Assembly (NCBI GenBank): GCA_022984795.1
Contig: JALIHJ010000032.1
Span: forward strand, 186,001 to 250,000
Direction of reading: 5' to 3'
Length of the DNA: 64,000 bases
Source of the DNA: Fabrea salina
Lineage: Eukaryota; Ciliophora; Heterotrichea; Heterotrichida; Fabreidae
A program made the translations under genes and the position numbers. The notes under the pieces are model-generated. The model saw only the letters and a program-made list of their open reading frames with translations. It did not search any database and was not told the DNA's origin. Of this stretch, positions 16,512-47,911 are shown in pieces (positions within the stretch are counted from its first letter, which is position 1; each line of letters begins with the position of its first letter).

Positions 16512-17540
16512 TTAATAATCAATACAACACAAGGCAAGCTTGAAAAGGTTGGAGTCTTGCATTTCGTCACTTGAAGTAGTGACTTGCTCGTTGGTGTTTC
16601 GTGTCCAGATTTCAGAAGTGAACCTAAACCAACCCATTGCCCTTGCCATCTCATAAGGCCCTGAGTACAGCTCTTCTAAAGAACACAGATGATAAGAGTC
16701 CCTGCAACTGTTCACAGCTTCCATGTAGTTGCATAACTGACACCCTAGCATTACGCCAAGTCCACTTGAAAGGGGAATACTCACCATAGCTAAGGCTTTT
16801 AGGTCCTTTTCTTGGAGTGTTTTGCTGTAAAAGCGCAGGTCGTCTAAGTAACCCTCGAAACCTACGTGCCAAGGGTCCTTACCTAGGTAGATGTCTCCAG
16901 AGTTCTGTTTAATAGGCGCTTTCAGTATTGCTTGAGAGTCAAGGTAAGCGTTTACGTAAAGCTGCATTAGTTGTCCACTGCCCACTACAGCTAAGTGTGT
17001 CCACCTTCTAAGGTTAACTAAGGAAACAGAGTCAAGTCCTTCGTTCCAGTAGTATTCAGTGCTGGCTCTAACGTGGAGTCTCCTTTCTTTAGGCCAAAGC
17101 ATCACACTTGGAGTCATCTCATACTCTGAGTTGCCTTTGTGGAGCAGCACTCGCCAACTCCCTGTAGAGTCTTCTATCAAGTACACCCAAAAACAAATAG
17201 TGAATTCACTTGTGTAGTAGTAAGAAATATGAGGAACTGTAGCTTGGGACTCACCGTTAAAGTACAGTGAAGCTCCTCTTCCGTCTAAGTAAAGCTTACA
17301 AAAAGCCGGTCCAGCAGGAGGTAAGTTTTCAATTGTGTTGGTGTAAGGAGAGTAGTCATGCCCAAATTTATCATCAAAAGTCCACCATCCAACTAAGTCT
17401 GAGGGGTTGTTGACGTCTGCAAAGACTTGAGACCCTTCGTTTATGCAAAAGGTAAAAGGAACTGAAAAGCAGTCTTCGCTGAATGAAAGTTACAGATAAG
17501 TTCCTGTGCAAAGGCCCTGTAAAAGCAACAGCAACAACAT
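16512..17540 (-). CDS. Secreted LamG / concanavalin-A-like lectin-fold protein (one 15-nt intron)
   Basis: The gene starts at the ATG at 17540 and has an intron at 17479-17493. Splicing removes an in-frame TAA and yields 337 residues. The start MLLLLLLLQGLCTG is a convincing signal peptide. The body is a laminin-G/ConA-like jelly roll: LVGWWTFDDKFGHDYSPYTN, GASLYFNGES, FTICFWVYLIED, RRWTHLAVVGSGQLMQLYVN, GDIYLGKDPW and GYLDDLRFYSKTL. A Cys-rich tail follows (GCQLCNYMEAVNSCRDSYHLCSLEELYSGPYEMARAMGW), similar to tails of extracellular protist lectin-type proteins. Probable role: an extracellular or secretory-pathway carbohydrate or adhesion protein; the ligand is unknown. Without the intron the annotated frame would start at 17186 and lose the signal peptide. 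It is divergent from PDI with 21 bp between ATGs. Confidence 0.85.
17479..17493 (-). other. 15-nt intron in the LamG gene
   Basis: GTAACTTTCATTCAG on the minus strand. It carries GTAA at the 5' end, AG at the 3' end and A at position 10 as the likely branch point. It contains the TAA that otherwise interrupts the signal-peptide frame. Removal restores one continuous frame (TYL then EDCFSVPF). Confidence 0.9.
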
Positions 17541-17561
17541 TTTAAACGAATATTGTAATAA

Positions 17562-18938
17562 ATGTTGTGGCTTTGCACGCTAAGTCTGGCTTTAGCAACC
17601 CAGGAGATTGAGAAGGTTTCTGAGCTCCCTAAGTTTTTAGACGACTTTTCACAAACTCGCGTGTTGGGACTTTGCTCTTCTTTGATATCTGAGTGCTTGA
17701 CTTTTAAGTCTGATTTCTTCAACATAGACCTGCCCAACCTTGCGTACATGGACATCAAAGACGAGGAAACTGCTCAGGTAGCAGCGCACTTCAACTTGAT
17801 TAGTTACCCTTTCATTGTGTACTTTCCTAAAGGCCAGAAAGACTACTCCACTTACTCTCCCTCTCCACTCCAAGACTCAATACACGTTATAAGAAGGATA
17901 GCCTCTGACAAACTCAAAGTAGACACTGTAGAAGACCTTAACAAGTTAGTGGACACTTACGCTTACCTAGAAGGGCTCATGTTAGGAGTGTACAAAGAAA
18001 TTTCCTCTGACTTCGAGGAGTTTTTGAGCTTTGGCGAAAGCATAAAGGCTGTGATGCCTGTAGCTCTGACTCAGTCTAAAGAAATAGCAAAGTACTTTGG
18101 AATTGACTCTGGAATTGTTGTCTTCAGACCTAAAGTCTTAGTAACTAGTGACTCAGAAAGCTACAGAGTCTTTAAGTCCTTTGACAAAGAGTATGTTCTG
18201 CTTAACCTTTACGGAAAGTACTCTTGGTTGAGTCCCAACACAGAAGAGCTACTTATGATGCCTCAGAAACCTTTGGTTACCCTTTACGCAAACGTTTTGC
18301 CTCTTTTGAACCCTTCCAACACAAAGTACACAGTGTCTAGGTTCCAAAAAGCAACCCAGGACTACTGCGAGCAGTTCACTTGCGCAATTGCAAATATTCT
18401 GAACTACCAATGGATGCTTCAAGAACTAAACTTAGGAGAAGAAACTAGCTTAATGTTACTAGACGACTCTGAAGAAATTTACGTACTGAAAGAAGTATTT
18501 TCTGCAAGTAACTCAATGCAAGCTGGAAAAATCAAGGAGTTTGTGGAAAACTACTTAAAAGGTGAAGCAAAACCTTACGTAGTGAGCGAAGAGGAACCTA
18601 ACTCCCCCTACGAAAACAACCTTAGAGTGCTAGTTGGCAAAACCATAGATAACTTTATAGAAACTAGTGAGCAACCTGTAGTTTTGGCACTTACAGAAAT
18701 GTACTGCACTGAGTGCCCGGGAGTAATAGAAACACTTGAAAAACTAGCTGTCAAGCATAAAGAAGTTAACTTTGCCAAAATTGACGCAGGCAAAAACAGA
18801 GTCCCCAACTACCTAAGGACAGAGTCAGTTCCTGGAGTAGTTTTTATATCCAAAGAAAAAACCACTTACAAACTAACCAAAACTGGCCAAGTCGAAAGTT
18901 TTGTGGAAGAAAACCTGGGCAAAAAAGAAGACCTTTAA
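17562..18938 (+). CDS. Protein disulfide isomerase-like ER protein with degenerate active sites
   Basis: 458 residues with an N-terminal signal peptide (MLWLCTLSLALATQ) and a C-terminal KEDL, an acceptable KDEL-type ER-retrieval signal. The length and fold pattern match a four-thioredoxin-domain PDI (a-b-b'-a'). In the first domain the CGHC motif is absent, leaving widely spaced cysteines (LCSSLISECLTF) followed by a normal cis-Pro loop (LISYPFIVYFPKG). The last domain has CTEC at C382/C385 in place of CGHC, and a recognisable ending (VPGVVFISK). Such proteins usually act as ER folding chaperones or have low redox activity, not as full oxidoreductases; this is inference. It is divergent from the LamG gene and convergent with VPS13, 8 bp between stops. 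Confidence 0.85.
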   Translation: MLWLCTLSLALATQEIEKVSELPKFLDDFSQTRVLGLCSSLISECLTFKSDFFNIDLPNLAYMDIKDEETAQVAAHFNLISYPFIVYFPKGQKDYSTYSPSPLQDSIHVIRRIASDKLKVDTVEDLNKLVDTYAYLEGLMLGVYKEISSDFEEFLSFGESIKAVMPVALTQSKEIAKYFGIDSGIVVFRPKVLVTSDSESYRVFKSFDKEYVLLNLYGKYSWLSPNTEELLMMPQKPLVTLYANVLPLLNPSNTKYTVSRFQKATQDYCEQFTCAIANILNYQWMLQELNLGEETSLMLLDDSEEIYVLKEVFSASNSMQAGKIKEFVENYLKGEAKPYVVSEEEPNSPYENNLRVLVGKTIDNFIETSEQPVVLALTEMYCTECPGVIETLEKLAVKHKEVNFAKIDAGKNRVPNYLRTESVPGVVFISKEKTTYKLTKTGQVESFVEENLGKKEDL

Positions 18939-18946
18939 CGGGTTAA

Positions 18947-21900
18947 TTATAAGTTTTTTAAAACATCGTACAGAGTTGTGAGTTGTTCAGGCTTCCCTGT
19001 TATTTCTACTCTGTCTTGTTGGAAACCTGGAGTTTTTGAGTTCACGTAGTAAATCTCTAGCCCCTCGTCAAACTTTTTGATTCTAGTAATGGACACTAGC
19101 ATGACTTGCCACTTAGCTTCGTACTTTTCAACAACAGCACACAAAATACGCTTGGAAGTCAAAACAATGACCCAAGAGTCTAGAGTAGCATGGAACTTAA
19201 TTCCTTCAGAAAGGTACTTGCCGTGCTCTACCATCGAAAGCACGTACTGCCCAACACTCTCACTATAAGAGTAAGGAGTCAGGAGTCTGCTAGCTAAAAA
19301 GGACCTAGGAGGTCTCCTCCTCAGCACAGGGTGTTGTTGCTGCATTACTTGACACAACTGAGAAGCTGTGGAGGAGGCTGCACTTACAGCTATGTTGGGC
19401 AGCAACAAAGACACCCTTGCCATTGCCATAACTACTTTCCAAACTTTGCTCTGGTTAGAGCGTTCGTCTATGTAGACAGAGTGGATTCCTTTTTTAAGAG
19501 CTTCAAGCATTTTGGAAGCTGAGTTAGACGCCCCAAACACAGTGTGCCGTACAATAGAGGAGGTTCCACGGATGAACCCTGTTAAGTTAGGTTGTCCTGA
19601 AAAGGTCAAAAAGTCAATGAGCCCAGTTTTTAGGTGCCTAATGAACTCGTTGGGGTTCCCTAAAGCGTCAGAGGAGCCTAGAATGTTGAGGGTTTGGTTT
19701 TTGCACTGAGAAAGGTAAAAAGAAGTCACTTCTTTCAACAAAAGGTCTAAGGGCAAGTGTCTGTGTGTCAGTTTAAGAGTTTCGAACTCCAAAAACACGT
19801 TTCCGATGTTAGTGAATATTATGAAAAGTATGCGCAGTGGGTTGACTAAGTTGGTGCTAGTGAACATTGAGGGTATTGAAGAGAAAGTTAAGTTGATGAA
19901 GGCGTTGTTTATCTGGATTTTGTCAAAGTAGTACTTTTGCTTTTTGGAGTTTTCTTTGGAAGCTGAAGGCTTCAGTAAAGAAGCTGAGATTTCTGAACAC
20001 TCGTGCAAGAAGTTCAGAAAGTTTTCTATGAAGAACCCGTCTAGTTTGACGTCTATTGGGGCCAAGTTAACCTTTAGCAGTTTGAAGTACTCAACTTCAT
20101 CATTGGAAATTTTAGACCTTCTTTTGTGCAGGTCAAATTTAAGGAACTTGCCTACTTCTTGCATGGAGTTAAGTATTACAGGGTTGCTAGTTCGGTACAT
20201 TTGGTTGTCGAGTTGCACGCTGTCAATGCTAAGTTCTACCCAAATGTCTGAAGAGTCCCTTTGAACTTTAAGGTTGATGTCAGTCAAAGAAGCATAGACC
20301 AGTTCGTGGGGAGCTGAGTTTATGAACGAGAAGCCCAGACAAGGCAGAGTTAGGCACAAGCTGAGCTCGTTAGTTTGGTAAGGCTGCAGCATTTCGTATT
20401 CTTGCTGAGACTTGTCGTGTCTGATAGTCAGCACTTTTGAGGAGCCTTCTCCAGTGATTTCTAAGTACAGAAAGTGAGGTGGGTGTGTGTCGTGGGCTTT
20501 GAGTTTGATCCTTTCAAAGGACTTGGGGTAGTCTAGTTTGTACTGGCCTAAAGGAATGACTCCTTTGGGATTGGTGCTGTGGATAAACAGTTTAACAGCC
20601 TTTTTCTTCATAGGCTCGTCCCAGGCGTATAAAGCCACTTCAAAAGGCTTGAGGATTTTGGCTCGTTTAGGAACGTTTGCTTGGTGGAGCTTTATAGTTT
20701 CCATAGAGAGGTTCTCAATTCTGTAAGGAGGAGCAAAACTAGTGTCTTGGAGAATCACGTGCAAAGTAGAGTCTTCTAGAGTGATTGTAACGTGCACTAG
20801 GACTTCTTGGTGCGAGTAAGAATTTTTGACCCTTAGCACAAAGTCATCTGGCTCGTCTATAAAGAACTTCCCGGACCAGTGCCAGCCTTCTTCTTCGAAC
20901 TTCACACATATGGCTCTTTCGCGAGAGGCATCAGGCCAGTGGAACTTGCTTTTCTCGTTAGGAAGCAGTCTGCAGACGCCTTGTTGTTCTATAGTAGGTT
21001 CCCACTGAGTCACTAAAGCTACACAGCCAAGCTTGTTAACTATTATGAAGCGAGGAGTGAACTTTATAAGACGAGTCCGTGTGAAGGGGTCGTCTGGAAT
21101 CTGTAAGTTAATTGCAACTTCATACAGACAAGGCAAGTGCTGAGTGTTTTCTTTAGCAATGATTGAGTTTCCAGAGATACTTAGCATGCTTTTTTTGCCT
21201 TGTTTGGAGTTAATGTTGAAGGGGGAAGACCACTCAGAGTTAGCTATTTGGATTTGGGCTTGTCCTTCTGAGTTGGGGTCTACTGAAAACATTCTGACAG
21301 TGGGTTCTTCAATGTCTTCTTCTTCTAGCAAAGAATTAAACCCCACTTCTAGGTCTTGTTTGTAACGCAGCCAAGGCTTCATAACTTTTTCTTGGGTTTC
21401 TAAAGTTTCCCCGAAAGCCGTAACTACACTCTCAATCACTCCTTTTTTCTTTTTGTCTGAAAAGTCGTCGAAGTAAACCCCTTCTATGCAGTAAGGCAGT
21501 GAAATCACATCGTAGTCAAAGTTCCGTTCTATGTACTTAAACATCAAAGGCAGACCTGTTAAGTTTTCAATCCAGTACTGTGCAAACACTTGCAGCTTCA
21601 TTACTCCTTCAATCCAAAAGGTCTCTACGATCACGTTTACTTGTTCTCGCAGGGACTCGCTGAACTGGTAAATGTACTTGTTTTCTTCGTCCAAAGCTAA
21701 AAACTCGCTCCAGTCAAACCCAGCAATTCTAAGCGACAAGCCAATCTTAGCGTTAGGGGGCAGTTCTACCCACTCAAAATCAGTTCCCCTCTCCAGTGTT
21801 CCGTAAGACCTTAGAGAAGCTGGAGGCATTTCTTGAGACCTGGCTTCTAGTTTGTACTCTAGTTGGCAACTCAGCAAGTTCTGCATCACTAAAGGTGGGT

Positions 21901-24900
21901 CCAGAGTAAACACTTTTACAAAGAACTTTTCAGTGTCTTCTTTAAACTCATGAGTACAGTACTTAAAAATTGCATATGAAGACCTTGGCTCTGAGTTGTG
22001 GCGCTTTCTCTGTGAAATTATGTCTGGCAAACCTGGAATGCTTCCAAAGCCTTTGTGGGGGCACTCTATTGTGAAGGGCTCTTCAACTGGGCTCAGCTCG
22101 TGCTTTTCTGACCACGAGTAACCTGTTATGCGGAGTTGCAAACTTCTGAAGTAAGAGTTGGTTATGGGCAGTGGAACTGTGCTTTGAGGAGGCACATTGA
22201 CGATGCTGTAAAAGTCTTCAGTGTGCTTCTTGCTGCCTGAAAAAGGCATGCCAAACCTTAGGTCCACAGGAACTTTAAGGTTGTTTTTGATTTGAATAGG
22301 TGACCTGATAACTAGTATTTTGTCGCCTTGGCGGTTCATCACGTCACAAAGCACTTGAAAGTGACCTCCTAACTGAGGAATGTTGTAGACTTTGCAACCC
22401 AGTCTGTCTATAGAGATTTCTCTGAGTTTGGGAAGTTCGCCTATTTGCAGTGATATAGAGTTTACCTTGTAACTCTTCTGTGCTCTGAGTTTGAGTTTAA
22501 ACATGTTCACAGGGTACCCCTGAGCTTCTTCTTCTGAAAAGTCCAAGCCATGCTCTTCTGCGTTTTCCAAGTAGTATAGTCTGTCCCCTACCCAGTACCT
22601 AAACATCTGTCCAGTTTCGTTCCTTATCCAGTAACCTGAACCCCACCTTACTTGAGGTTTCGACTCAGAGGCAAAGCCTGCTCGAGTAAACAGCCCCTTG
22701 CTTTCAAAATCCCTTGCAAAGTGAGAAAGGGTGTTTAGAAAAGCTGTTGTAATGTTTATGTTCAAGTCAGAGTTCACAGTAACAGCTAGTTTTTTGTGCA
22801 AGTTGACTTTGTTGAAGTTTACACTTACTAAGGTACTTTCTAAGAGTGGTTCCCAGCCCAAAAGTTGATGGTTAAAGTAAAACACTTCAAAAGAGAACTC
22901 AGCAGAACTAGTGTTTGATGCTTTTAAACTTATGTTGTCTGACTTAAACATAAAGTAGGTGTTTTGGGCGTTTTTGGAAAAAGTAAAGTCATGCGAAAGG
23001 CTCAGCAGCACTTGGGAAATACTTACTTCTAACTTTGGCAGCTCAGAGGTGCTTCCAGACTTAGGCAGGTAGCTCAAAAACTGATTACTAAGTTGCTGGA
23101 AGTAACTCAGGTGACTCAGCAAAAAATCCACTCCTAGGTCGCTTACTTCAAGTTTAGAGTCTTTAAGAGAAGCACTTACAGGGTGAATAATGTTTTTCCC
23201 AGCAATTTCTAAGCCGTTCTCAGCAACACAACTCTTTCCATTAGACAAAGTTAAGTCTTTAACACTGAGAACACTTTCAGTGTAGTCCAGACTCAGTGCC
23301 AGCACTAAGTACCTTTTGTGTTCAAAGTCACACGAAGATTCTTGCGAACTGGCTAAGTCCTCTGCTAAATCGTCAGTCACACACACTTGTAAATTGTTTA
23401 CTTCTCCTGACACTTGGAAGTCCATTTCTTGTTTTGTTGCTGTGAGGAGTTAGTTCTCCAGCCTGTGAAGCAAATTCTAAAAGGCAGTGAGTGGCGTAAG
23501 GAGTCAAAATAAACCTTGGGTGTTGGAGAGAAAAGTAAACAGACTTAGTTTCTAGTTCTTTAACTGAACAAAAGAACAAAGGACTGTGGGTGGACTGGAC
23601 TTGCGGTAAGAAAAGCACCTGCTGCGGACCTTCTAGACTCAAGTGGGCATCTATGCAGGTAATTTTGGTTTCAAGCTGTTCTTTTAGAATGTAAATGTCG
23701 TTTAGCACTACACACACTGCTTTTTCTTCCAAGGCCCAAGACAACTTGATTTTACTAAGTTCAGCATTGACTTTTTGCTTAGCAGAGCCCTCTTCTGACT
23801 CAAGCGAAGTGTCAGTTTCTTGAGGCATCAGCTGCTCCAGCATAGTTTTAAGTTTTTTAAAGTGCTTTTTGTAGTTGTCTAGCAGCCTCAAAACCAAGTT
23901 AACTTGGCTAAGTGAAGAAGAACCCACTAACTTAGGGACTTTCAAGTCAATTTCATTTTCAAGTATTTTAAGGAAAACTCCGAAGTTCTTCACTAAGTAC
24001 TCCTTAGTTGCTTCTTGAGAAACTGTGTAGATTTGGGTTTCTTCTAAAGCAAAGTAACGTTCTTTTTGTGTGCCAGAAAACCTTAAAGTTCCTAAGTCCA
24101 CTACACAAGACTCTGAGTTAAAAGGGACTTTTAAAAACTCCAGTACGGGGTGGAGTATTTGAGCTTTAACTGAGTACTTGTTGGGTTTTGGAACTGTACT
24201 TTTGAGGTGTAAGTTTTGGTCGAAGGTATTGAGAACTGAGTTAGAAAAGAAAGACACAAGGTTTTCAAGCAGCTCCATAACCATAACTACTTTGAAGCTG
24301 TTAACTTCAACTGAAACTTCTTTGTTCAACTCAGAAACTTCAAAGTGCACTAAGTTCCGAGCTAAAGTTTCAAAGAACAAACAGTTGTTTTCGCAGTCTT
24401 CAATTGTGAGTTTGCCTAAGTCACACTTAAGTAAGTTCTTAGTAGAGTACTCAACCTGGGCAGCAGAAAGGTTTAAGTTAGTGACTTCTTTGGAGTGCCC
24501 TGAGAGTTTACAGGCAATGTCTTTGAGTTCTAACTCGAAAAAGACTGAGTGTTCAACTTCTGAAGAAATAGGAGGCAAAGAAGGGGCTTCTTGCTTTTTG
24601 AAAAAGGACAAAAGTAACTTAAGGGACTCGTCTCGGTAGTTGAGGTAAAAGTGAGACACTGAAGTGGACACAAAAATATCAAACTCTGAAGTTCTGAAGT
24701 CCGGATGCGACTCCAGTATGTGGGTTACTTCTACTTTGAGGAAGTCTGAAGTTTCAAAGTCACTCTGCACCAACACGTGGTCCCCTGCCCAGTCCTTAAG
24801 ACTGAGTGCTCCTATTTTAACTCCCATTTTGTACCTAGCTTCTTCAAGCCTCAAAGCTCCTTTTAAGTCGTTTCCTTCTAAACTCATTAAAGTTTGTTCT

Positions 24901-27551
24901 TCTTCAGAGTCTTCTAAAAGCACTACGTTTAACTTGCGGACTCCAAACTCAACTTGGAGGTGTTCTTTGTTGAAAGGGTAGTTTTTTTCTACTTTGAGTT
25001 CTTCGTAGGGATCAGTAGCATCGTAAAACTCCTCTTCGTCTTCTTCGTCAACTGCAAAACTAGGCAGTTTGTAGTTGATTTCTTCTTTCAGCGAAGAAGT
25101 TACTGAAACGTCGTCTGAGTCGTGGTACTGCTGGAGCAAGTAGTACTGGAGTTGGGATATTTTGGCTGTCAAGTTTTCTATTTCGCCTCTGACTTTGAAG
25201 GTCGTTAAGTGAGGGTCTTTAGGAACTATCGACTTTGAAACTTCTAAGTTTATATCAAAGTTCTCAACTGGGTTCCAGGACTGGCCTGTTTCGGGGTGCA
25301 GCAACTTGACGTTTATGTCACTTAGTTTCACATTGAAGTGGTCGTAAAACTCGTTTTCGTCGATTTCTTCAGAGTACTTTCTTAAAAGTAGTCTTTCGTA
25401 AATGTGCCCGCGGGGTTTGGAGTAGGCTTTTAAAAACCCTAAGTCAACTACCACTTGAGTGGTGTCTTCACTGTTGGGGTTCTGAGGAATGATGACCACC
25501 GGAGCGTTTACGTTGATGTTGGCGTTTAAGTTGAGTTGCGACTTTAGAACGTGCTCCATGCGGGCTTGGGTTCTGAGTTTCCAAGAAGCTAACTGACTCA
25601 TGGCCTGTACTTCTAAAGCTTCATACAGACTCAGAGCCTCTGGGATCTTCAAGAAGCCTATGATTCTTTCTATGCAGTACTTGTTGTACACCACTTCTAA
25701 AGGCTGCAAGTCTATTTCCAAAGTAGCGTTGTGGGAGTTGTCGGTGTTCATGACCATCTCAAACACGGGGTTTATCTTAAGTTCGTGCTTGGAGAACTCA
25801 GGGAACCCGTCGTTTTCAAGGGGAAATATTTCTTCTTCTACTTCAAAACCAGGCTGGGCGTCTAAGTAGTTTTCGTCAATGTTTTTGGGCATAACTAGTT
25901 TGCTGAACCTGCCTATAGGAGTGAAGGGGTCTGATGCACGCAAACTGCTTAGGTGCAGGTAAGTTTGGTAGGAGTCCTTAGAGTGCTGTCTGTGAATAAC
26001 TACTTCGTCAAAAGTGATCCTTAAAAAAGAAGCAAGTAGTCCGTTGAGTTGTCTGCCTCCTAAAGAAACTGAGCACTTCTTAAGTTCAAAGTTAACAAAA
26101 GACTTCAAGTAGTGGGCGTCGTCGTTAATCAAGTTGGAGTACTCCAAAAGAGTGTTCATAAAAGCCTCTTCCTCTTCAGATGCAGACCCAGAAAACCAAC
26201 TCATGCTCCACTCCAGCCAGCCCTTTTTCCTAGGAATTCCTTTGAGTTTGCTTAACTCTCTTTCTGCGAAGTTCCTGAATAAGTAAATCTCTTCTACTGT
26301 GTGCCTGTCTTCTATGTCCAAAAGAAGTTTGTCAAGTTCAAAAACACTTAAGCTTGAGCAGTTTTTGTCTGTTTGGAAGTTAGGCAGAGTCCTTCCAGTT
26401 TCTACTTGGTACTCCTTAACTAGTTTGTGTTGGTATATACTACTGTACTTAAGTTTGTCGGAAGTCCGTTTTTGGAAGTAGTCCCAGTTAAAGGGTCTGA
26501 GTCTGGACTTAATTTTATTGTGGACTAAGTTGAGCGTGTAAACCCACCACTCTTTTGGAGAGTGTTTAGGCCGGGACTGAGGTCTGAACTCTAAGTGAGT
26601 GCCTACTTTGTGGTTGGAAGAAATAGTGTTAGCCAGCATAAGTAAGTCCTGGTACTGGTTAGTTTCTAAAGCACAAGCAATTTCTTCAACTATGATTGAA
26701 ACTGAAGTTTGGGGGATTTGTTCTGTTGAAGACACCAAGCTTCTGCGGACTCTAATTTCTGCACTGACGGGCTTAAGCAAGTAGTACTCTGAAACAGAGG
26801 GGCAGTACTCTTTGTGGGCTATGAAGGGGTACATGACTCCTGCAAACTTTTCGCTAGGCATTGCTTTGAGCCAGTCAGGTTTCAGACTGAGTAAGTCAGA
26901 ACACTTCGGGATGTGGTACACAGCAAACTGGTTGAGTTCAAGAATCATAAAAGACTTTTGGGCATCTCGCTTGGCTTGTAGCGTAATGAAGTTTTTTTGC
27001 CACTTCGAGTCGCAAGGAGTGTACAAAAGGCTCTCAAGAGTAATTCCGATTACAAAAGGTCTGTAAGGGTTTGATATTGTGTCTTCGAACCTCAAGTGCA
27101 CGTTCTTCAAAGAGATGCACACGTTGTCAGCTATAGTGGTTTCCAACTGCTTCAGATAAGTTTTTTTGGGGCTTTCGAACTTCTTTTTGTTCATGAGGTC
27201 TTCTAGTTTGGACCTTTTGGCCCTTCGCTTTTTTTCGAGGAAAAGAGTGGGGTCGGGGTTCTGTTTGGGAGTGCACACTACATACAAGTCCTCTAGGGTG
27301 AGGCGTATAGGTTGACTCCACAGAGCTCTCCAGTTAAAACTTAGTGATAAAGACCCTATTACTCCTTTTTCGACGGTCAAGTCAACTCCAAGCATAGAAC
27401 TCAGGAATCTAAGTCCTTCTGGCTTGATGTTTAGCTGGGACTGAGTCACTTGGCCGCTCCAGTTGTCCACTTGAAGTTCGTTATCATCAAAGTCCTCTAT
27501 GAACTCTCCAAGGATCTCTTGAATGATAGCTTTAAACTTCCTTTCAAACAT
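18947..27551 (-). CDS. VPS13: VPS13-family bridge-like lipid transfer protein (one 16-nt intron)
   Basis: A single gene of about 2862 residues: exon 1 is 27551-23402 and exon 2 is 23385-18947. It appears as two overlapping frames until the 16-nt intron at 23386-23401 is removed. It begins with the chorein N motif (MFERKFKAIIQEILGEFIEDF, then WSGQVTQSQLNIKPEGL) that opens the lipid-transfer groove. Long beta-rich repeating-groove modules follow. The VPS13 adaptor-binding/SHR-BD region is in exon 2 (repeats with N at the start of each unit, such as VNKLGCVALVTQWEP and IENLTGLPLMFKYIE). A C-terminal region comes next (GFIRGTSSIVRHTVFGASNSASKM), then a PH-like end. VPS13 proteins move phospholipids in bulk between membranes at contact sites. 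An FFAT-like acidic tract (DEEDEEEFYDATD) lies in exon 1 and could bind VAP. Confidence 0.95.
23386..23401 (-). other. 16-nt intron in VPS13
   Basis: GTAAACAATTTACAAG on the minus strand, with GTAA/AG borders. It is the only 16-nt GT-AG interval in the overlap that shifts the first reading frame into the second without meeting a stop. The joined frame reads RRMCVTDDLAED. Confidence 0.8.
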
Positions 27552-27613
27552 TTTACTATTATAAGGTCCATTTATGCAGGGTGTTGTGTATACTAAATGA
27601 CATTTCTTACAAC

Positions 27614-28291: not shown

Positions 28292-29500
28292 GTAAACTCG
28301 TAGTAATTGTATGGTTAGTCTCTGAACTGTTTGTCTAAGATGCTTAAAAAAGATCTCTAAAAGTAATTCAAGGAAAAACTGATAAATTACGCAGTTTATG
28401 ATGATTTATTTCCATTTCTTTTTCGAGAATTCTTATATTTTCTGGTAGTTTACGTCTAAGCTTTACTTCTAAACATTGCTTTAACTCATAAGTACTTTAA
28501 AATCACTCTTTTTCAAATGCTCTAAGCTCTAGAAACTCTAACTATTTTTAGAGTTAAGATGTTGATTAATCACTGATTAGAATTAATACGAGCTGTCTAA
28601 GCCTTTGGCTTGAATAAGTAGGTTGTTAAGCTCGTTGGGGCTTTGTATTTAGAATGTTTTTAGTTAAGATTGTAATAATTTTCTTTTTTGTAATTTAAAT
28701 TAAATTTTCTTTTCATACTCTAAGTTTGTAGCTTTTTGGGGCAGAGTTAAATAACTAGGGTGCTCAGTCACAACTTGTGAGTGCGGACAAAGAACCTTCT
28801 AGATCATATCAGGAGCTCATGGATAACCGGGGGTTCTCAGGAACACCCAAACCTAGGAATTCTTAGTAGAGTAGTTCTTAGTTTGTGCCAACCCAGCACT
28901 AAATGCTTCACCTCTAGGCAAATCTTTCAGTTAACAGTTGCTTTCTGATAGCAAGTGAGCAAAAGTTGTCATCAATGAATTTCCCTATAAAAATATTTTT
29001 TCAGATAGGAAAAATGTTCTACTACCAGAAGTCAAAGTGATCCTTAGACAAAGGCACTAACAGACCTGTTCTACAAAGACCAAATTCAAATGCAAAGCCA
29101 AGTTAGGTTTTTCCAGAGAAACAGAATTTAGAGAGTAATGAGCTTTAATTCTACTTTGAAAAATTTTGTTTAGAAAGTTTAAGGCTAAGAATTAACTCAC
29201 ACAGTAAAGGTATTCCTTACTTAGCTTGAAAGTCGCTTTAAAAAATAAATAGAATTTATTAGAATACCCTATTTTTACAGAATTATCAAATGGAAATATA
29301 TTTAATTAAGAAAGTGCTGCATTCCAGAAATCCAAAACCACTTTGTTGAATTATGAACCTTTTACCTACAACACTTGATTTAAGCTATGATGCCAAAAGA
29401 CTTATAATGGCCAAGAGGGAAATATTGATTTCACTATATTGAATATTGCAAAGGGATTGTTTTAACTATGAACAACCTTAATGGATTAGGAGTTATAATT
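28292..29500. other. 1.2-kb noncoding region with hairpins and a GC-richer island; possible ncRNA locus
   Basis: This is the only long spacer in the window. It is AT-rich with stops in all frames, so no protein gene is supported. Two parts stand out. At 28588-28635 a 7-bp stem (ACGAGCT / AGCTCGT) encloses a perfect hairpin AAGCCTTTGGCTT (28599-28611), followed about 50 bp later by a T6 run (28684-28689 area). At about 28740-28930 the composition is GC-richer, with a hairpin at 28831-28848 (GGGTTCTCAGGAACACCC) and a 34-codon open stretch ending at about 28866. I see no tRNA cloverleaf, snRNA, SRP or RNase P signature. It may hold a lineage-specific ncRNA, a decayed gene, or the extended promoter of the TPR gene. 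Confidence 0.4.
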
Positions 29501-36590: not shown

Positions 36591-36600
36591 TTAGTATACA

Positions 36601-37065
36601 TTAATTTATTCTTGAATTTGCTGGCTTTTTGTAAACAGTCAGCTTATGGTCAGAGGTTTCTGGATGAGTGTCAAGGAAGCACTGCTTACAAAACCTCTTG
36701 GCTCCGCACTTGGCGCATATTCCTTTAGGAAGGCTTTTGCAGTTGGAACAAGTGATGTTGACTAAGTATAACTTACCTAGGGTATGCTGGGCTTGGAGTA
36801 AAGCGGGTGAAAAGTCTATAGAACTTCTTTTACTAGAAGAAGTGGTGCTTTTTCCGTTTGAAGTTTTAACTTCTTCGACCTGCACTTCTGCGTCTTGGCC
36901 TTTAGTTGTTTTTGAGTGGAATGGCGAAGTGGCTGCATCAGCCACCTGCAACAAACTGTTAGTTTTACCTTCTTCAATATTATCTACTTGGGGAAATTCC
37001 GAGTTGCTTGGGAACCTATTTTGAAGTTACTTAGAGCCTCTTGCATTGCTTTGCCAACAACCCAT
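36601..37065 (-). CDS. Small zinc (B-box-like) protein with N-myristoylation motif (one 15-nt intron)
   Basis: 149 residues after removing the intron at 37016-37030. The start at 37065 reads MGCWQSNARGSK. Gly2, Cys3 and Ser6 match the classic N-myristoylation/S-acylation pattern. The middle is low complexity (TSNGKSTTSSSKRSS). The C-terminal 50 residues carry CSNC, then CAKC, CKQC and two late His (DTHPETSDHKL), arranged like a B-box zinc finger. Expected: a membrane-tethered adaptor with a zinc finger that binds protein partners; no enzyme domain is visible. Without the intron the frame lacks any ATG and the lipid-anchor signal is lost. It is convergent with NUP210 and divergent from the next gene (93 bp). 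Confidence 0.8.
37016..37030 (-). other. 15-nt intron in the myristoylated zinc-protein gene
   Basis: GTAACTTCAAAATAG on the minus strand, with GTAA/AG borders and A at position 10. Its first bases create the in-frame TAA that separates the ATG exon from the rest. Removal joins ARGSK to FPSNSEF in one frame. Confidence 0.88.
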
Positions 37066-37158
37066 TTTTATGCCTGCTTCGAATAAGTTCTCTTTAGCTA
37101 CAACTTACACTAAATCCTTGAATAATCCAGGTAAACTAAGTTACTGAATTCAGTTAAA

Positions 37159-38511: not shown

Positions 38512-38680
38512 GTTTTCTGCACGCAACGACGACGAAGTAAGCCACAAGTTACCTAGTATCTCAGAAATTAAGCACGTGTACAAGTTACTGTGGGAATTCC
38601 TGGAAGAGATGAAAGACTACCTAGAAGCCTGGGGGAACAAAATGCTTAAACTCTGCAGCGACTGTAGGTACGGTCTTTAA
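38510..38680 (+). other. Coding-like 3' tail in the +1 frame of the preceding gene
   Basis: The tail begins around AAG at 38510 and reads KFSARNDDEVSHKL, HVYKLLWEFLEEMKDYLEAW and LKLCSDCRYGL, ending in TAA at 38678-38680. It has no ATG of its own near the start and fills the whole gap before CK1. No 16-nt GT-AG interval joins the frames without a stop. A one-base difference in the AGGGAAAAG stretch (about 38494-38502) would suffice to explain it. Confidence 0.6.
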
Positions 38681-38700
38681 TTAATTGGCAGTTTTAAATA

Positions 38701-39627: not shown

Positions 39628-39646
39628 TGTAACTAATGTTAACTCT

Positions 39647-42262: not shown

Positions 42263-42274
42263 TTTGAATTATGA

Positions 42275-43978
42275 TTAGTTATAGCGACTTAGTAAGAAAC
42301 TGTTGATGTCATGCACAAGGTTGTAGCAGTCCTGCATGATGGCTTGGTAGTTGGTTTCAGCTCCTTTGCTGTCGATGTAGCTTTTGAGTCCGTAAAGAGT
42401 TTGTTCGTTGAGGGTCATTTTCTGTTCTTGGTCTTTGAGTTCTTTGTAGACAGAGGAGTCTTCTAGTTGTCTTTTTTTGCTTTCATACTTGAGGTTGGAA
42501 CTCCTGATTTCTTGGGAGAGTTTTTCTTTTTTCTGTTGCAGGTTTTCTTTTTCCTGGTTGAGTTGTCTGAGTTCTTGCTGTGCAGAAACCCTCATGGTGT
42601 CTACGTTGTTGTACTTGTTTTGGATCTCGTCTTCCATAGTTTTGATTTTGTCCTTCACGGCTTGGAGTTGCTGGGGAAGGCGCTCGTCCAGACTCTTGAC
42701 TTTTTCGAGGTCAGATTGTCTTTCTTCAAGTTCTTTTTTGAGTCTTTCCATAGTAACTGCTGCGTTGGTGGTTTGTTCTTTTTTGTAAGTGTACTCGCTT
42801 TTCCAGTCTTTGACTTGTGACTGGTCAGGCAAGTTTTCTTTGCGGTCAAGAATAGTTGCAATTTGCTCCAGCATTTGGGAAATGTTGTCTTCAAGGTTCT
42901 TGATCATGTCCAGTTCGCCCTTTTTGGTTGATTCAAACGAGTCAATGAACTCAGTCATAGCTTTGTCTCTTTGAGCTAATATTTCGTACTTCTCCATTTG
43001 GTTGTCGTCAGAGTTCTTTAGGTCGTTGTCCATTTCTTCTATTTGTTTTTTGTAGCTCGAAATGGCTTTTTCGATTTCCTTAGCTCTGTTTTCGGTGTCT
43101 TTGATCACAGTGTTGTCAGCTTTGACCCTGGCAAGGAGTCGTTCCCTTGCTTCTGGAAAAGACAAGTTCAGTTCGTTAGTTTGCACTTCTAAGTCTTCTT
43201 TCCTGCGCACTAAGTTTTGCTTTTGTTCCCTTAAGTGGTGGGCTTTTTGCTTCAGCACGTCGGTGCGCAAACGGGAGTCTGCAGCAGCTAGTCTTTGGTT
43301 GACGTTGTCAAGTATAGCTTTTTTGTGCTGGATTTCATCTTCGAGACTTCGGTTTTCGTTTTGGAGTTGGATGTACTCCTGTCTTTCGTCTGCGTCCAGT
43401 TCGTTGAGTCTTTCTTCAGCTCTGGAGTTGATGCTTTGGATTTCCATTTCAGCCCTTGCAATCTCGTCTTCAATGTTTTTCCTTTCTAAAAAGAGTGAGT
43501 CGAGTTGTTCGCGCTGTCTGTGGTTTTGGGACTTCATGTACTCGTAAGTGGACAGTACTTCTTCTGCTTGGGTTTCAGCTCTTTGCTTGTCCAAAGTAAG
43601 GTTGTAGTCAGCTAGTTCTCCTTCGAGGTTCCTGACTTCTTTAATTAAATTGTCCTTTTGCTTTTCTAAGTTGCGGAACATGTTTGAACTGCGGCTGATC
43701 TCGTCCATTTCTCTGTCAAAGTTGTCGATTTCTTCCCTGAGTTCTGTGTTTTTCTGCCGGAGAATGCCTAAGTAGTAAGACTTGTCGTAAACTATCCTTC
43801 CAGGCCCTTGACCGGCGGTTTTAATCCCAGTCAGTCCGTGCTGAGTTACCGGACGGTTCACTACTTTAACATCTTGGTAAGATGTATTGGGAGCTTCTCC
43901 TTTAAACCCTGTTCCGCCCCGCATGGCTGTTCCTTGTCTCGAAGGCACGCGGTAAGCTGTAGGAATCCTGCCTGCCAT
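42275..43978 (-). CDS. IFT74: Intraflagellar transport protein 74
   Basis: 567 residues. The Gly/Arg-rich basic N-terminus (MAGRIPTAYRVPSRQGTAMR) and the conserved block RPVTQHGLTGIKTAGQGPGR followed by YDKSYYLGILRQK are typical of IFT74. In relatives this basic region cooperates with IFT81 to bind tubulin. From about residue 75 to 530 the protein is continuous coiled coil, which pairs with IFT81 in the IFT-B core. The C-terminal part (LYGLKSYIDSKGAETNYQ, MQDCYNLVHDINSFLL) is also family-like. Role: anterograde cargo transport during cilium assembly. IFT81 is not in the window. It is divergent from NOSIP with only 22 bp between ATGs. Confidence 0.93.
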   Translation of the reverse strand: MAGRIPTAYRVPSRQGTAMRGGTGFKGEAPNTSYQDVKVVNRPVTQHGLTGIKTAGQGPGRIVYDKSYYLGILRQKNTELREEIDNFDREMDEISRSSNMFRNLEKQKDNLIKEVRNLEGELADYNLTLDKQRAETQAEEVLSTYEYMKSQNHRQREQLDSLFLERKNIEDEIARAEMEIQSINSRAEERLNELDADERQEYIQLQNENRSLEDEIQHKKAILDNVNQRLAAADSRLRTDVLKQKAHHLREQKQNLVRRKEDLEVQTNELNLSFPEARERLLARVKADNTVIKDTENRAKEIEKAISSYKKQIEEMDNDLKNSDDNQMEKYEILAQRDKAMTEFIDSFESTKKGELDMIKNLEDNISQMLEQIATILDRKENLPDQSQVKDWKSEYTYKKEQTTNAAVTMERLKKELEERQSDLEKVKSLDERLPQQLQAVKDKIKTMEDEIQNKYNNVDTMRVSAQQELRQLNQEKENLQQKKEKLSQEIRSSNLKYESKKRQLEDSSVYKELKDQEQKMTLNEQTLYGLKSYIDSKGAETNYQAIMQDCYNLVHDINSFLLSRYN

Positions 43979-44000
43979 TTTAAATTATCCTCATTCAAAG

Positions 44001-44837
44001 ATGTCAAGGCACTCCAAAAACAACACTGCACACAGCATCTTCACTCAGGGCGAAAAGCAAATGATCCAGGACTGGGGCACTGTCACCCAAAGACTAAGTG
44101 CAGAGTCCCACAGGGCCTTTGATGCCTGCAACTTGTGCTTGTACCAAGCCCAGAACCCCTTGTGTTGCAGAAAAGGCCACATTTTCTGCAAAACCTGCAT
44201 TCTAGACAACATAATCACTCAGAAAAAAGAAATCAAAAAGGCCAAAGCCACCTGGCAAAACACTGAGTTGCCCCAACTAGAAAACCAAGCCTCTGAAAAA
44301 CTAAAGCTTTTGGAACAGTCCGAAGTCCCTCAAAAACAAGACTGGCAAAAGTTCCAGGAACACAAAAAGTATGGAATTATGAAAGAAGAAGAAAAAACCT
44401 TGGCTAAAGCCAGAGACAGCCTCAAGAAACCCTACGACCCTCCCCAAGACAAGCTAAGTTCCAGCTTTTGGGTGCCTGAACTCACCCCTGCAAACAAACC
44501 CTCCTCAGAAAAACCCAACAAAAAACTAGTATGTCCCTCCAAACCCCACACACTACAACTCAAGTCCCTAGTTGAACTCAAGCCTGAAGTAGACCCCAAC
44601 ACTCAAAAGTACGTTTGTAGTTCCTGCAAAAAGGCACTTACTCATCAAGCTTGTTCTGCTGTCAAGCCATGCGGGCATTTGTTTTGTAAAAAGTGCATTA
44701 AAACCTGTGATTTCAAAACCTGCTTTATTTGCTCTAAAGAGATTTTAGGTGTTATAGATCTAGACGCCGGAGGAACTATGTATGCTTCTCACAACCAAGT
44801 CCAAGCTAAGGTTTCAAAGCCTGTTTTTCAATGCTAG
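44001..44837 (+). CDS. NOSIP: NOSIP-type RING/U-box protein
   Basis: 278 residues, near the family size. It starts MSRHSKNNTAHSIFTQGEK, the conserved beginning of NOSIP. The split RING/U-box N-terminal half comes next (CNLCLYQAQNPLCCRKGHIFCKTC, followed by ILDNIITQKKEIKKAK). A coiled linker follows, then the C-terminal half (KYVCSSCKKALTHQ, CGHLFCKKCIKTCDFKTCFIC) and the typical end VIDLDAGGTMYAS. Compared with animal NOSIP the Cys pairs are more complete, so both halves may bind zinc. NOSIP is a conserved nuclear E3-type protein associated with spliceosomes; the animal nitric-oxide-synthase link is not expected here. It ends in TAG, 20 bp before the first 4-TM gene. Confidence 0.93.
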   Translation: MSRHSKNNTAHSIFTQGEKQMIQDWGTVTQRLSAESHRAFDACNLCLYQAQNPLCCRKGHIFCKTCILDNIITQKKEIKKAKATWQNTELPQLENQASEKLKLLEQSEVPQKQDWQKFQEHKKYGIMKEEEKTLAKARDSLKKPYDPPQDKLSSSFWVPELTPANKPSSEKPNKKLVCPSKPHTLQLKSLVELKPEVDPNTQKYVCSSCKKALTHQACSAVKPCGHLFCKKCIKTCDFKTCFICSKEILGVIDLDAGGTMYASHNQVQAKVSKPVFQC

Positions 44838-44857
44838 TAACCGCCAAATTATAAAAA

Positions 44858-45466
44858 ATGGTTGAAGTGCACTGCATGAAAAAGAACTCCTGGTGGATCC
44901 TTCACAGTGTGGTCTTTGGACTCATAACACTGCTCACTCTGGCTTCTTTCTTCCTCCCTTGGGGTTCTTATGACGATGGCACTGATAACGCCCTTGTTTT
45001 AAGTGGAATTTATGTTGACAATGAAGAAGAGGTAATAACCTGGGCAGACCTTGCTGATGACGCTTCAGGAGACGCAGAAGACACCTACAACGGAATTGGC
45101 TTGGCCTCACTTATTTACTTCCTGTTCTCTATCATAGCCATGCTCTCATACATTGCCGCTATCATTTTGCTGATCCTTGATATCTGCGGAAAGTTTTCAA
45201 AAACCTTGGTAACTGTAATCCTGGTTTGGGTGTCTTTCGGCTTCTACCTGATAGGTTACATTGCCTTCATGGCTGCAGCCAAAATCACTTTTGGGGAAGG
45301 AGATAAGGCGATTTTCGATTCAGAAGGTGATCAACAAAACGCAGGTGCTGAAGCAGGCGGAATACTTGGACTGATTGTCGTACTTTTGGGTGTGATAGCA
45401 GGAGCTCTGCACACCTATGTGTGGTTCAAGTCCAACAAGGCAGCTAAAACTACCCAAAACTCTTAA
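44858..45466 (+). CDS. Four-transmembrane protein, copy A of a tandem pair
   Basis: 202 residues. Four hydrophobic segments lie at about 14-34, 79-107, 116-140 and 165-190, a tetraspan layout. The first extracellular loop contains an acidic stretch (DDGTDNALVLSGIYVD, then WADLADDASGDAEDTYNG). Shared hallmarks with copy B are the PWG(S/Q)Y motif after TM1, CGKFSKTL before TM3, YLIGYI inside TM3 and ITFGE in the second loop. It resembles claudin/PMP22-type tetraspans in layout only; I do not recognise the family and no function is claimed. The start context is AAATTATAAAAAATG. Copy B follows 63 bp downstream. Confidence 0.8.
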   Translation: MVEVHCMKKNSWWILHSVVFGLITLLTLASFFLPWGSYDDGTDNALVLSGIYVDNEEEVITWADLADDASGDAEDTYNGIGLASLIYFLFSIIAMLSYIAAIILLILDICGKFSKTLVTVILVWVSFGFYLIGYIAFMAAAKITFGEGDKAIFDSEGDQQNAGAEAGGILGLIVVLLGVIAGALHTYVWFKSNKAAKTTQNS

Positions 45467-45529
45467 ATAAGTACTTTTTAAAGTATTAACGAATGACCAT
45501 TTAATATTATCAAAGTCTTTCAATAATAA

Positions 45530-46141
45530 ATGATTAAAGTTCACAAAGTTGAAAAAAAGCATTGGTGGGTTGTCAGTTACTCGCTCCTTTCGGCCTTAGT
45601 AAGCATGGCTATTGTGACTATTTTCCGACCTTGGGGCCAATACGAAGACACTGACGATTACCTTGTGCTGAATGGAATCTATTACGACAGTCAAGAAGAA
45701 ACAAAGACTTGGTCAGACCTTGCTGATGATGCCCCAACAAGTGACATGGAGGACACTTACAACAGCCTTCAAACCGCCGCAATTGTGTTTTTGATCTTCA
45801 ACATCATTAGCATGTTGCTTTACGTAGCTACGCATGTTATGTTGAACTTAGACAACTGCGGAAAGTTCTCAAAGACTCTTCTAACAGTTATCTTTTACTG
45901 GCTGGGCTTTGTTTTCTACCTGATAGGTTACATCGTTTTTGTAACTGAAGCCAACATTACTTTTGGGGAAGCAGATGAAGGAGTGTTTGACGCAGAAGGC
46001 GAACTGCAAAAAGCAAGTGCAGGAACTTCCGCAATTATGGGACTTGTTATAGTACTACTAAGCGGAATAGGAGTAATTCTGCACACCTACATTTGGTGGA
46101 GAGCCAACGCAGCAATGAAGTTACTAAATGCTGGTAGTTAA
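45530..46141 (+). CDS. Four-transmembrane protein, copy B of a tandem pair
   Basis: 203 residues with the same four membrane segments and motifs as copy A: RPWGQYED after TM1, WSDLADDAPTSDMEDTYN, DNCGKFSKTLLTVI, FYLIGYIVF, ITFGEADEGVFD, and a final TM ending in HTYIWWRAN. The two proteins can be aligned from end to end with hardly a gap but differ at many positions, so the duplication is old. The acidic first loop is kept in both and may bind cations or a partner. The stop is 3 bp from that of the convergent gene, the tightest pair in the window. Confidence 0.8.
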   Translation: MIKVHKVEKKHWWVVSYSLLSALVSMAIVTIFRPWGQYEDTDDYLVLNGIYYDSQEETKTWSDLADDAPTSDMEDTYNSLQTAAIVFLIFNIISMLLYVATHVMLNLDNCGKFSKTLLTVIFYWLGFVFYLIGYIVFVTEANITFGEADEGVFDAEGELQKASAGTSAIMGLVIVLLSGIGVILHTYIWWRANAAMKLLNAGS

Positions 46142-46144
46142 TAA

Positions 46145-47911
46145 TTACTTCTTACTGAATATTTCTTTGCAGTCGTCTTCCGTGAAGAGTTGCATAAGGT
46201 CTTCTTTGTCTAGGAGGTTTGGTTGTTTTTTGGTGTGGAGGTCCTGCCAAGTCACTAAGTCGTCTCGTTTAACGATCTTAGGCATCTGGTACTTAACTTT
46301 CTTTTTGGAGACAGAAAAGGACCGGTCAGTTTGCTTGTTTTCTTTCCACTCCTGAAGTTTTTTCTTAACTTGTGAGTGGTCGCGGAACTTGTACCTTTTA
46401 CTTAAGTCGTTTTCAGGAATTCTGGAAAGTTTGTCGCTCGAAAAGGGCAAACCAAACCCTTTGGCCTTGTTGAGGTAAGCGTTGGGGTCGTGCACTTCCA
46501 AAAACAAGTAAAGTTTTTGCTTCTTTTCTTCAACAGAGAGTTCAGATATCTTTTCCCCAGTAGTTAAGTCAAAGTTGCTGTTGAAAAAAAGAACTGCCAC
46601 ACTTTCTAAGCACTCAAAAAACTGGTTAAGTGACATAACTCGGGAGTTGGAGGAAAACTTTTTGAAGAGTTGCTGTGCTTGTGTTTTTGAAATAGTGGGG
46701 TAGGACTTGTTCCGGCCTGTAAGTCCAAAGTCGTTGCAGAACTTAATGAACTTGCCAATGTTCCAGAGCTCTGAGTCTTTGTTTATGGACTCAAAAGTAG
46801 GAGTCCTGCCAAGCATTTGGTGCTGCTTTGCGTAGAACAAAAACACTTCTTTGACACCTTTAATCTGTTGTTTCAGAAAAGAGTCCCCGTTGTCCTGCAA
46901 GTTGTTTTTCAAGTAAGACTGCCTGACTTCTTTAAGTCCTTTTAAAATGCTTTCAGCTTCCTGAGTAAGGTCTGGGTCCTGAGTTGAGTCTTTGAGTTGA
47001 GTGTATTCTTGGATGCTGTTTTCAAGCATCCTACCCAAAGAAACTTTCTTAAAAGCTTCTTTTTGGGCCCACTCTTCAATCAAAGCAACTGACTGACTCA
47101 AACCTAAACTTTGGTACCTTTGTTTTTCTGAGTAGTTTCTGTACCTGTTCTCCACCATCCTGTCGAACAAAAACAGGTCTCCTTTTTTCAGGTTAACTTT
47201 AAACAGTTTAAGGAGTTCTCGCAAAAAGTCTTTGAGTTTAAAGGCCTCTACAAGTTCTGATTGTTGTGAGTAACTACTGAACAAGTCCAGCACTTGAGGA
47301 AAGTACTCTTGTATGTAAGGAGTGATCCAAGACCCTCCTCTCGAAGGCGGTTTAGAATGCGACTTTGGGTTTTGTTTGTTCTTAGGCAGCCTTTCGCGCG
47401 AGTAGTCTGAAACTCGCGAAGTGTGTCCAGACTTGCTTTGGAACTCGTGAGGACTTACAGACTGACTTGGCGGGTAGTAAGGAGTTTGTTGTCTTATCTG
47501 GACATTTTTTTTCCTGGGAGTTGTTTTTTCAGGGGTCTGAACCTTAGACTCTTCTTCAGAGTTTCTTTGCTCTGGTTTTTCTTGAATGTGCACTTGCTTG
47601 GAGTTACTTTCTGGTTCTTGCTTAAGTTTGCTTTCAACGAAATTTTTAAATCTTGTGTAAAACATTTCACTAGTGATTTTCCTAAGTGGAAGTTACTCGT
47701 TGTCACAAACATCTTCGGGGTCGTCTTGGTTGACAAATGGCTCAAAGTACTTTAAAGCTTCGTTCAGAATGCTTACCTTGAATTTAGCTTGGACTTTTTG
47801 AATGATTTCAGGTAGGTTACTTTCTAAGCTGACAATGCTTTTCTGTGCCTTTTTATTGAAAATAGCCATAACTTCATTGCCGGATTCGAGGTCGTTCAAC
47901 AGATCTTCCAT
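46145..47911 (-). CDS. Unknown helical protein with hidden first exon (one 15-nt intron)
   Basis: 583 residues: the first exon starts at the ATG at 47911 (MEDLLNDLESGNEVMAIFNK), with an intron at 47682-47696. The joined frame continues DNEKITSEMFYTRFKNF. A Ser/Pro/Lys-rich linker follows, then a helical body of about 350 residues. The segment WNIGKFIKFCNDFGL ... KTQAQQLFKKFSSNSRVMSLNQFFECLESVAVLFF looks like a degenerate EF-hand pair, a pattern common in ciliate and other protist proteins with calcium-independent helical hands. The C-terminus is basic (VKKKLQEWKENKQ) with a short acidic end. Family not recognised. It is divergent from the pseudokinase gene (38 bp), so the two could be co-regulated. 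Confidence 0.75.
47682..47696 (-). other. 15-nt intron in the unknown helical protein gene
   Basis: GTAACTTCCACTTAG on the minus strand, with GTAA/AG borders and A at position 10. It contains the in-frame TAA that splits the first 71 codons from the rest. Its 5' half is almost the same as in the LamG and zinc-protein introns (GTAACTT). Confidence 0.9.

Follow-up and report, generated by a model that had tools for sequence, protein, structure and literature searches.

In Stentor coeruleus, introns are described as 15 nt (92.8%) or 16 nt (7.2%) long and bounded by GU and AG, with the branch-point A at position 10 of the 15-nt form and, in 442 of 633 introns of the 16-nt form (70%), an A at position 11 (PMC9505925). 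Introns of mostly 15 and 16 bp, together with CCCTAACA telomeres, are also described for Blepharisma stoltei (PMC9942806), and a study of Fabrea salina has been credited with placing the branch-point A near the intron 3' end (PMC13344042). Heterotrich introns of 15 or 16 nt are already in print; the identification of such introns here is sound and adds a known feature.

We analysed a window of 64,000 nt and the genome to which it belongs. The genome comprises 18,328,466 bases (18.33 Mb) in 103 contigs; the macronuclear genome of Fabrea salina described by Zhang et al. in 2022 is said to measure 18.35 Mb and to contain 'tiny introns', and the window is probably from that same genome. On sequence grounds it is most likely heterotrich macronuclear DNA of Fabrea salina. 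The intron traits of heterotrichs were found: lengths mostly of 15 nt and rarely of 16, GT..AG ends, an A at position 10, and genes for U1, U2 and U6, each with one above-cut-off match in the genome and with canonical pairing boxes. In these lengths, ends, position-10 A and snRNA boxes the genome resembles Stentor (PMC9505925), and in its 15/16-nt introns and its CCCTAACA telomeres, present on all four contig starts seen, it resembles Blepharisma (PMC9942806). The branch region of Stentor introns is described as having no strong consensus, and the commonest Stentor intron is GUAAUUUUUAUAUAG, whereas 453 of the 845 GTANNNNNNACTTAG sites here carry A4, Y8 and T9; Stentor introns have 75.6% A+U, compared with 60-73% A+T in the three 15-mers discussed below (PMC9505925). 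Blepharisma reads UGA as tryptophan and has 66% AT (PMC9942806), whereas in the window, which has 57.5% AT, TGA terminates five of 88 main ORFs, one of the five being the disputed VPS13 frame considered below.

We are highly confident of the overall reading, in which the window is macronuclear DNA of a heterotrich, U2-type introns of about 15 nt occupy three of four sites marked in an earlier note and at least two further likely sites, and the fourth marked site, of 16 nt, more probably reflects a slip or frame change (Table 1). That note had taken its four intervals for heterotrich-type minute introns and for the best clue to the organism. Its description of the letters is accurate for all four intervals, each of which lies on the minus strand. 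As a clue to the organism the introns serve well, and the identification holds for the three 15-mers, all of which contain GTAACTT and carry A at position 10; for the 16-nt site it probably fails.

Table 1. Predicted introns, the claimed 16-nt interval and the gene that contains it (positions within the window)
Feature	Interval	Position	Strand	Context
15-nt intron, predicted	GTAACTTTCATTCAG	17479..17493	-	phase 2; after 15-codon hydrophobic exon 1; gene 16512-17540; in-frame TAA removed
15-nt intron, predicted	GTAACTTCAAAATAG	37016..37030	-	phase 2; after 11-codon exon 1; gene 36601-37065
15-nt intron, predicted	GTAACTTCCACTTAG	47682..47696	-	phase 2; after 71-codon exon 1; gene 46145-47911
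Claimed 16-nt intron, probably no intron	GTAAACAATTTACAAG	23386..23401	-	codon score -0.41
VPS13-like gene, two frames		18947..27551	-	VPS13_N upstream; VPS13_VAB and VPS13_C downstream (Pfam)
Likely second intron	GTAAGCTTTACTTAG	17285..17299	-	phase 1, stopless; gene 16512-17540; fits GTAANNNYTACTTAG
Likely second intron	GTAAGTTATACTTAG	36762..36776	-	phase 1, stopless; gene 36601-37065; fits GTANNNNNNACTTAG

At each of the three 15-mers the GTAA supplies an in-frame TAA, and removal abolishes it, as had been claimed. Downstream frames of 321, 137 and 511 codons (at 17479, 37016 and 47682, respectively) thereby gain an upstream ATG at the start of the first exons given in Table 1; the expectation that standard predictors would mis-call gene starts is reasonable for some genes, here those whose first exons, 15, 11 and 71 codons long, would be missed. 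In the 47682 gene the first exon is plainly coding, with a codon score of 11.2 and stops throughout the other two frames. Those of the 17479 and 37016 genes score -2.6 and -2.9, and in each another frame outscores the proposed one, at lengths too short to judge. A Laminin_G_3 domain lies downstream of the 17479 interval, and no Pfam domain crosses the junction at any of the three sites. Two scans that imposed strict codon thresholds on the flanking sequence recovered none of the four marked sites.

Chance joining was assessed in 156 kb unselected for the intron motif and holding 114 gene-like ORFs, by counting joins that remove a stop and let an ORF reach an ATG further upstream. Intervals of 15 nt with GT..AG ends gave five joins, against 0, 0, 1, 1 and 1 for five other 15-nt end pairs, and GT..AG intervals of 12, 18, 21, 24, 27, 30 and 33 nt gave one to four each. 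The five were the three marked sites, one in an Arp2 gene (L008), and 62211-62225 (plus strand, GTAGGAGTAACCCAG); we judged the last to be chance, as the join takes a plus-strand ORF into a stretch that a minus-strand ORF also covers, and the plus frame has an ATG of its own just downstream.

Genome-wide, the consensus GTAANNNYTACTTAG occurs 453 times versus five for the reversed pattern, and the looser GTANNNNNNACTTAG 845 times versus 44. In a search with the gap left free, 63 of the matches listed (100 of 682) were 15 nt long, two were 16 nt and nine were 27 nt (six of these being near-identical copies of one repeat), with one to three at each other length. Sixty-four GTAANNNYTACTTAG sites were chosen irrespective of frame; 49 lie clearly within the sense frame of a gene and 15 failed the strict frame criteria. 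Position 5 is C in only 13 of the 64, making GTAACTT a minority form, and its presence in all three 15-mers, which had been offered as a common pattern, is an accident of small sample. Neither U1 nor U6 carries a change compensating for GTAACTT, both boxes being canonical. The reversed-pattern control is unsafe for loose patterns, as GTAN7ACTTAG (16 nt) illustrates: it matched 318 times versus 67 reversed, yet none of the 12 loci read held an intron at the match, nine being in-frame coding sequence and three antisense to long ORFs.

Removal also improves protein matches. Elsewhere in the genome, the main Pfam score rose on removal of the phase-1 intron in all three testable cases with the intron inside a domain, and random five-residue deletions lowered the score in eight of nine trials, the ninth overlapping the intron. 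The spliced kinase aligns to NEK1 (PDB 4apc) gap-free at the junction; for the spliced Arp2 the alignment runs along the protein, with a gap of one residue two positions ahead of the junction. Not every score moved this way: a secondary kinase model lost 0.4 bits on removal, and Pfam does not favour removal of the second candidate in Prp18 (66.9 to 65.0 bits). We draw nothing from the rise of the Prp18 score from 48.9 to 66.9 bits, since 48.9 comes from a single open frame by another scoring route. Against PDB, Prp18 had no match at 0.001, and only unrelated repeat proteins appeared at up to 5. Prp18 has a match in this genome, and is listed as not found in the Stentor account (PMC9505925).

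Two other readings of the 15-mers were weighed. Assembly errors or pseudogene lesions are likely enough in one place, the VPS13-like gene, where the switch of frame falls close to an A-rich run, and the tight consensus in its 16-nt form has only 17 matches genome-wide (versus one for the reversed form); for the 15-mers, however, the same length and motif recur in sense orientation at hundreds of sites, and Pfam matches improve on removal, which makes this reading very improbable. Ciliates excise short DNA inserts whose lengths can be sharply peaked, and germline-limited inserts (IES) persisting in the assembly might look similar; this is the least probable reading, as the consensus GTAAG..YTAC..TAG is of splice type and agrees with the canonical U1 box, and telomere-capped contig starts and main ORFs covering 92.9% of the window point to the macronucleus. 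The intervals 17479-17493, 37016-37030 and 47682-47696 are best explained as predicted 15-nt spliceosomal introns.

The 16-nt site is another matter. Removal of 23386-23401 does join frames of 1,383 and 1,478 codons, as claimed, linking VPS13_N to VPS13_VAB and VPS13_C; the interval begins with GTAA and has TTAC close to its 3' end, and 16-nt introns occur in heterotrichs (PMC9505925), their consensus form being in the excess noted above. In GTAAACAATTTACAAG, position 11 is T and the A lies at 12, although in Stentor the branch A likewise departs from position 11 in 191 of 633 16-nt introns (PMC9505925). By itself, a frame join across 16 nt is hardly above chance, because GT..AG gave 11 joins in the chance test against 2, 8, 7, 5 and 7 for other end pairs. 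A second 16-nt GT..AG interval, 23365-23380 (codon score -0.69), joins the same frames equally, as do GT..AG intervals of 10, 13 and 28 nt, which score 0.72-0.76, above the 16-mer. Codon usage instead favours a frame change near 23430-23440, which scores 6.64 versus -0.41 for removal of the 16-mer, the higher score being flattered by picking the position from many. The codon-based switch lies about 30 nt upstream of the 16-mer, in an A-rich run containing no GT..AG interval; from about 23434, 11 codons score 3.84 in the downstream frame and -4.29 in the upstream frame. Across 588 similar coding windows whose +1 frame is open, the incorrect frame led by at least 5 once and by at least 8 never. 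Homology gave no match over the junction in Pfam or PDB. A true 16-nt intron is therefore unlikely, and the likelier explanations are a slip in the assembly or a genuine change of frame within one VPS13-like gene.

The proposed mechanism follows Stentor. We read the introns as U2-type and almost uniformly 15 nt; they start with GTAA(G), place the branch-point A within YTAC at position 10, and finish with TTAG. The major spliceosome would remove them through a 10-nt lariat loop and a 5-nt tail. The sequence shows the motif excess, length peak, frame repair and Pfam gain; the spliceosomal route is inferred.

Retention of a 15-nt intron leaves the frame intact, since its length is divisible by three. 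The consensus, if retained, introduces the stop TAG in phase 0 and TAA in phase 2, and none in phase 1. Detection by stop or frame change, the rule of the earlier note, is blind to stopless phase-1 introns; it passed over two likely ones, 17285-17299 and 36762-36776, because their retention makes no stop. Both are likely introns, in genes already marked. Pfam does not favour removal of the former and is uninformative there (80.3 bits spliced versus 81.3 retained, the domain beginning downstream of the candidate), and the latter fails the tighter GTAANNNYTACTTAG, having A at position 8.

Two further intervals in the window are recorded as observations. That at 29210-29224 (plus strand, GTATTCCTTACTTAG) has a good consensus and sits in the widest gap between listed ORFs, frameless on both sides; that at 47986-48000 (plus strand, GTAATTATTACTCAG), in a kinase-like gene, is phase 0 with no stop and reads equally well retained or removed.

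Among the 49 clear-frame sites, phases 0, 1 and 2 number 27, 9 and 13. Phase 1 is scarce relative to one third (9 of 49 by strict criteria, p = 0.016; 10 of 64 by best frame, p = 0.001). We do not claim selection, because an excess of phase 0 is common among eukaryotes and a motif had been used to pick the sites. The consensus itself could give warning of a retained intron in two phases out of three, with roughly one in six introns (phase 1) being stopless, so that failure to splice one of the latter would silently lengthen the protein by five residues and evade nonsense-mediated decay; we consider this proposal evenly poised. Stopless phase-1 introns are invisible to stop-based annotation and may be under-counted in heterotrich genomes. 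Stop- or frame-based detection has a blind spot for phase-1 15-nt introns, and gene models for this genome need a motif or RNA rule; such stopless in-frame introns offer a natural test of how far ciliates depend on the decay of unspliced messages.

All four short intervals that the earlier note had marked as introns are present in the window, all on the minus strand (see table). In each of the three 15-mers, which lie in phase 2 (phase being the position of the interval relative to the codon), the GTAA supplies an in-frame TAA, and removal eliminates this stop and joins the downstream frame to an upstream ATG, in line with the earlier note. The 71-codon first exon of the 47682 gene has a clearly coding codon score; those of 15 and 11 codons score slightly negative and are too short for judgement. 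In a 156-kb sequence set not selected by intron motif, 15-nt GT..AG intervals gave five stop-removing joins, and five other end pairs gave 0, 0, 1, 1 and 1. At 16 nt, frame joins were close to chance level (11 versus 2-8 in the other end pairs). Two earlier scans that applied strict codon cut-offs recovered none of the four sites.

Marked intervals and stopless phase-1 sites in the window
Feature	Position	Strand	Remark
15-nt interval	17479-17493	-	removal joins 321-codon downstream frame to ATG 15 codons upstream
15-nt interval	37016-37030	-	removal joins 137-codon downstream frame to ATG 11 codons upstream
15-nt interval	47682-47696	-	removal joins 511-codon downstream frame to ATG 71 codons upstream
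16-nt interval	23386-23401	-	T at position 11, A at 12
Stopless phase-1 site	17285-17299	-	inside gene already marked by the earlier note
Stopless phase-1 site	36762-36776	-	inside gene already marked by the earlier note

Across the whole genome, GTAANNNYTACTTAG occurred 453 times versus 5 for the reversed pattern, GTANNNNNNACTTAG 845 versus 44, and GTAACTTNNANNNAG 205 versus 53; 8 of 30 GTAACTTNNANNNAG loci read held a clear intron (an upstream ATG, an internal stop and a downstream frame of 150 codons or more). The looser GTAN7ACTTAG yielded no intron at any of 12 loci read despite its excess (318 versus 67), so the reversed control is safe for tight patterns only. The tight consensus in 16-nt form was found 17 times versus once reversed. 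When the gap was left free (0-16), the first 100 of 682 matches included 63 of 15 nt, 2 of 16 nt and 9 of 27 nt. The GTAACTT noted earlier is indeed shared by the marked 15-mers, yet across the genome it is a minority form: position 5 is G in 33 of 64 fetched GTAANNNYTACTTAG sites and C in 13. GTAGGAGCTGACTTAG was seen in at least three places (G000:C1:215549, C12:283390 and C21:127331), and the one copy read, at locus L049, lies in frame inside a long ORF.

The 64 fetched sites are those that come first when the 453 are ordered by contig (C1-C11), and they were taken irrespective of frame. Strict frame criteria were passed by 49 and failed by 15, with 27, 9 and 13 in phases 0, 1 and 2; the consensus always contains TAG in phase 0, always TAA in phase 2 and never a stop in phase 1, such that retention of a phase-1 intron would add five residues. 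The nine phase-1 proteins, plus that of L113 (best in phase 1, non-strict), were translated spliced and retained; six of the ten entered the Pfam scan, four in both forms. The main Pfam score rose on removal in all three proteins with the junction inside the domain: kinase, from 94.4 to 103.5 (L099); Sugar_tr, from 42.5 to 55.1 (L113); and NT-C2, from 66.0 to 75.9 (L085). A secondary kinase model lost 0.4 bits. Eight of nine random five-residue deletions in the same proteins scored below the retained form, while the ninth, which overlapped the intron, scored above it. With the junction outside the domain, the L117 score did not change (44.5 versus 44.6), and the two proteins scanned only in spliced form had no Pfam match. 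For the first stopless site in the window (80.3 bits spliced versus 81.3 retained) Pfam is uninformative, the domain lying downstream. No alignment gap was found at the junction of the spliced kinase against NEK1 (4apc), and an Arp2 gene with GTATTAGCTACTTAG removed aligned along its length, showing a one-residue gap two positions ahead of the junction.

Introns of 15/16 nt with a branch A at position 10 are already in print for the heterotrich Stentor (PMC9505925). For Blepharisma the published lengths are 15 and 16 bp (PMC9942806), about 95% of heterotrich introns are given as 15 bp long (PMC11441545), and Fabrea is credited with a branch-point A close to the 3' end (PMC13344042). Among titles and abstract starts we found none on heterotrich phase-1 introns that lack a stop; the genome papers of Stentor and Fabrea were outside this coverage, and novelty is not claimed.

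At the 16-nt site the upstream ORF carries VPS13_N and the downstream ORF VPS13_VAB and VPS13_C, so the two ORFs are likely one gene; two overlapping genes may instead meet here. No homologue spanning the junction was found in Pfam or PDB. The frames are joined by two 16-mers, and also by GT..AG intervals of other lengths; no joining GT..AG interval (8-40 nt) begins upstream of 23413. The downstream frame shows good codon usage from about 23434 onward, the upstream frame poor usage from about 23432 onward; over 11 codons the scores are 3.84 versus -4.29. The wrong frame led by at least 5 once and by at least 8 never in 588 coding 11-codon windows whose +1 frame was open. A shift near 23430-23440, the best chosen among many positions, scores 6.64, versus -0.41 for removal of the proposed 16-nt intron and -0.69 for that of the other 16-mer; GT..AG removals of 10, 13 and 28 nt score 0.72-0.76. 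We consider an intron less likely here than a slip in the assembly or a genuine frame change.

Of the window, 92.9% lies in 34 main ORFs of at least 150 codons, whose stops are 28 TAA, 5 TAG and 1 TGA, the last closing the disputed VPS13 frame. TGA is likewise scarce among ORFs of at least 200 codons in the 156-kb set (window plus loci L001-L010 and L041-L046), with 68 TAA, 15 TAG and 5 TGA, so that 5 of 88 use it, the VPS13 frame included. The widest gap between neighbouring listed ORFs (28292-29428; 1.1 kb, A+T-rich, without a main ORF) contains an intron-like GTATTCCTTACTTAG at 29210.

The assembly comprises 18,328,466 bases in 103 contigs (window, C29:186001-250000); Zhang et al. reportedly described in 2022 a Fabrea salina macronuclear genome of 18.35 Mb with tiny introns. 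Repeats of CCCTAACA stand at all four contig starts fetched; the same repeat is reported for Blepharisma (PMC9942806). The near-identical 27-mers GTAATGAGTT..TAAGTAGTTACTTAG are a subtelomeric repeat, five of them (G000:C1:1129, C7:1022, C8:1408, C10:1229 and C11:634) lying less than 1.5 kb from a contig start and the sixth (C1:375187) 7 kb from a contig end.

U1, U2 and U6 each have one match above the Rfam cut-off, with the boxes ACUUACCUGG, GUAGUA and ACAGAGA intact. The Prp18 gene (L120, G000:C31, match 183310-183495) has a 15-nt intron, GTAAAACCTAGCTAG, containing an in-frame TAG, whose removal links the Prp18-domain exon with a 176-codon exon that bears a PRP4-like motif; the gene perhaps has a stopless intron too. 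A second candidate in this gene, GTAACTCTTACTCAG, gained no support (66.9 bits kept versus 65.0 removed). For Stentor, PMC9505925 records Prp18 as not found, whereas the Fabrea assembly contains a match.
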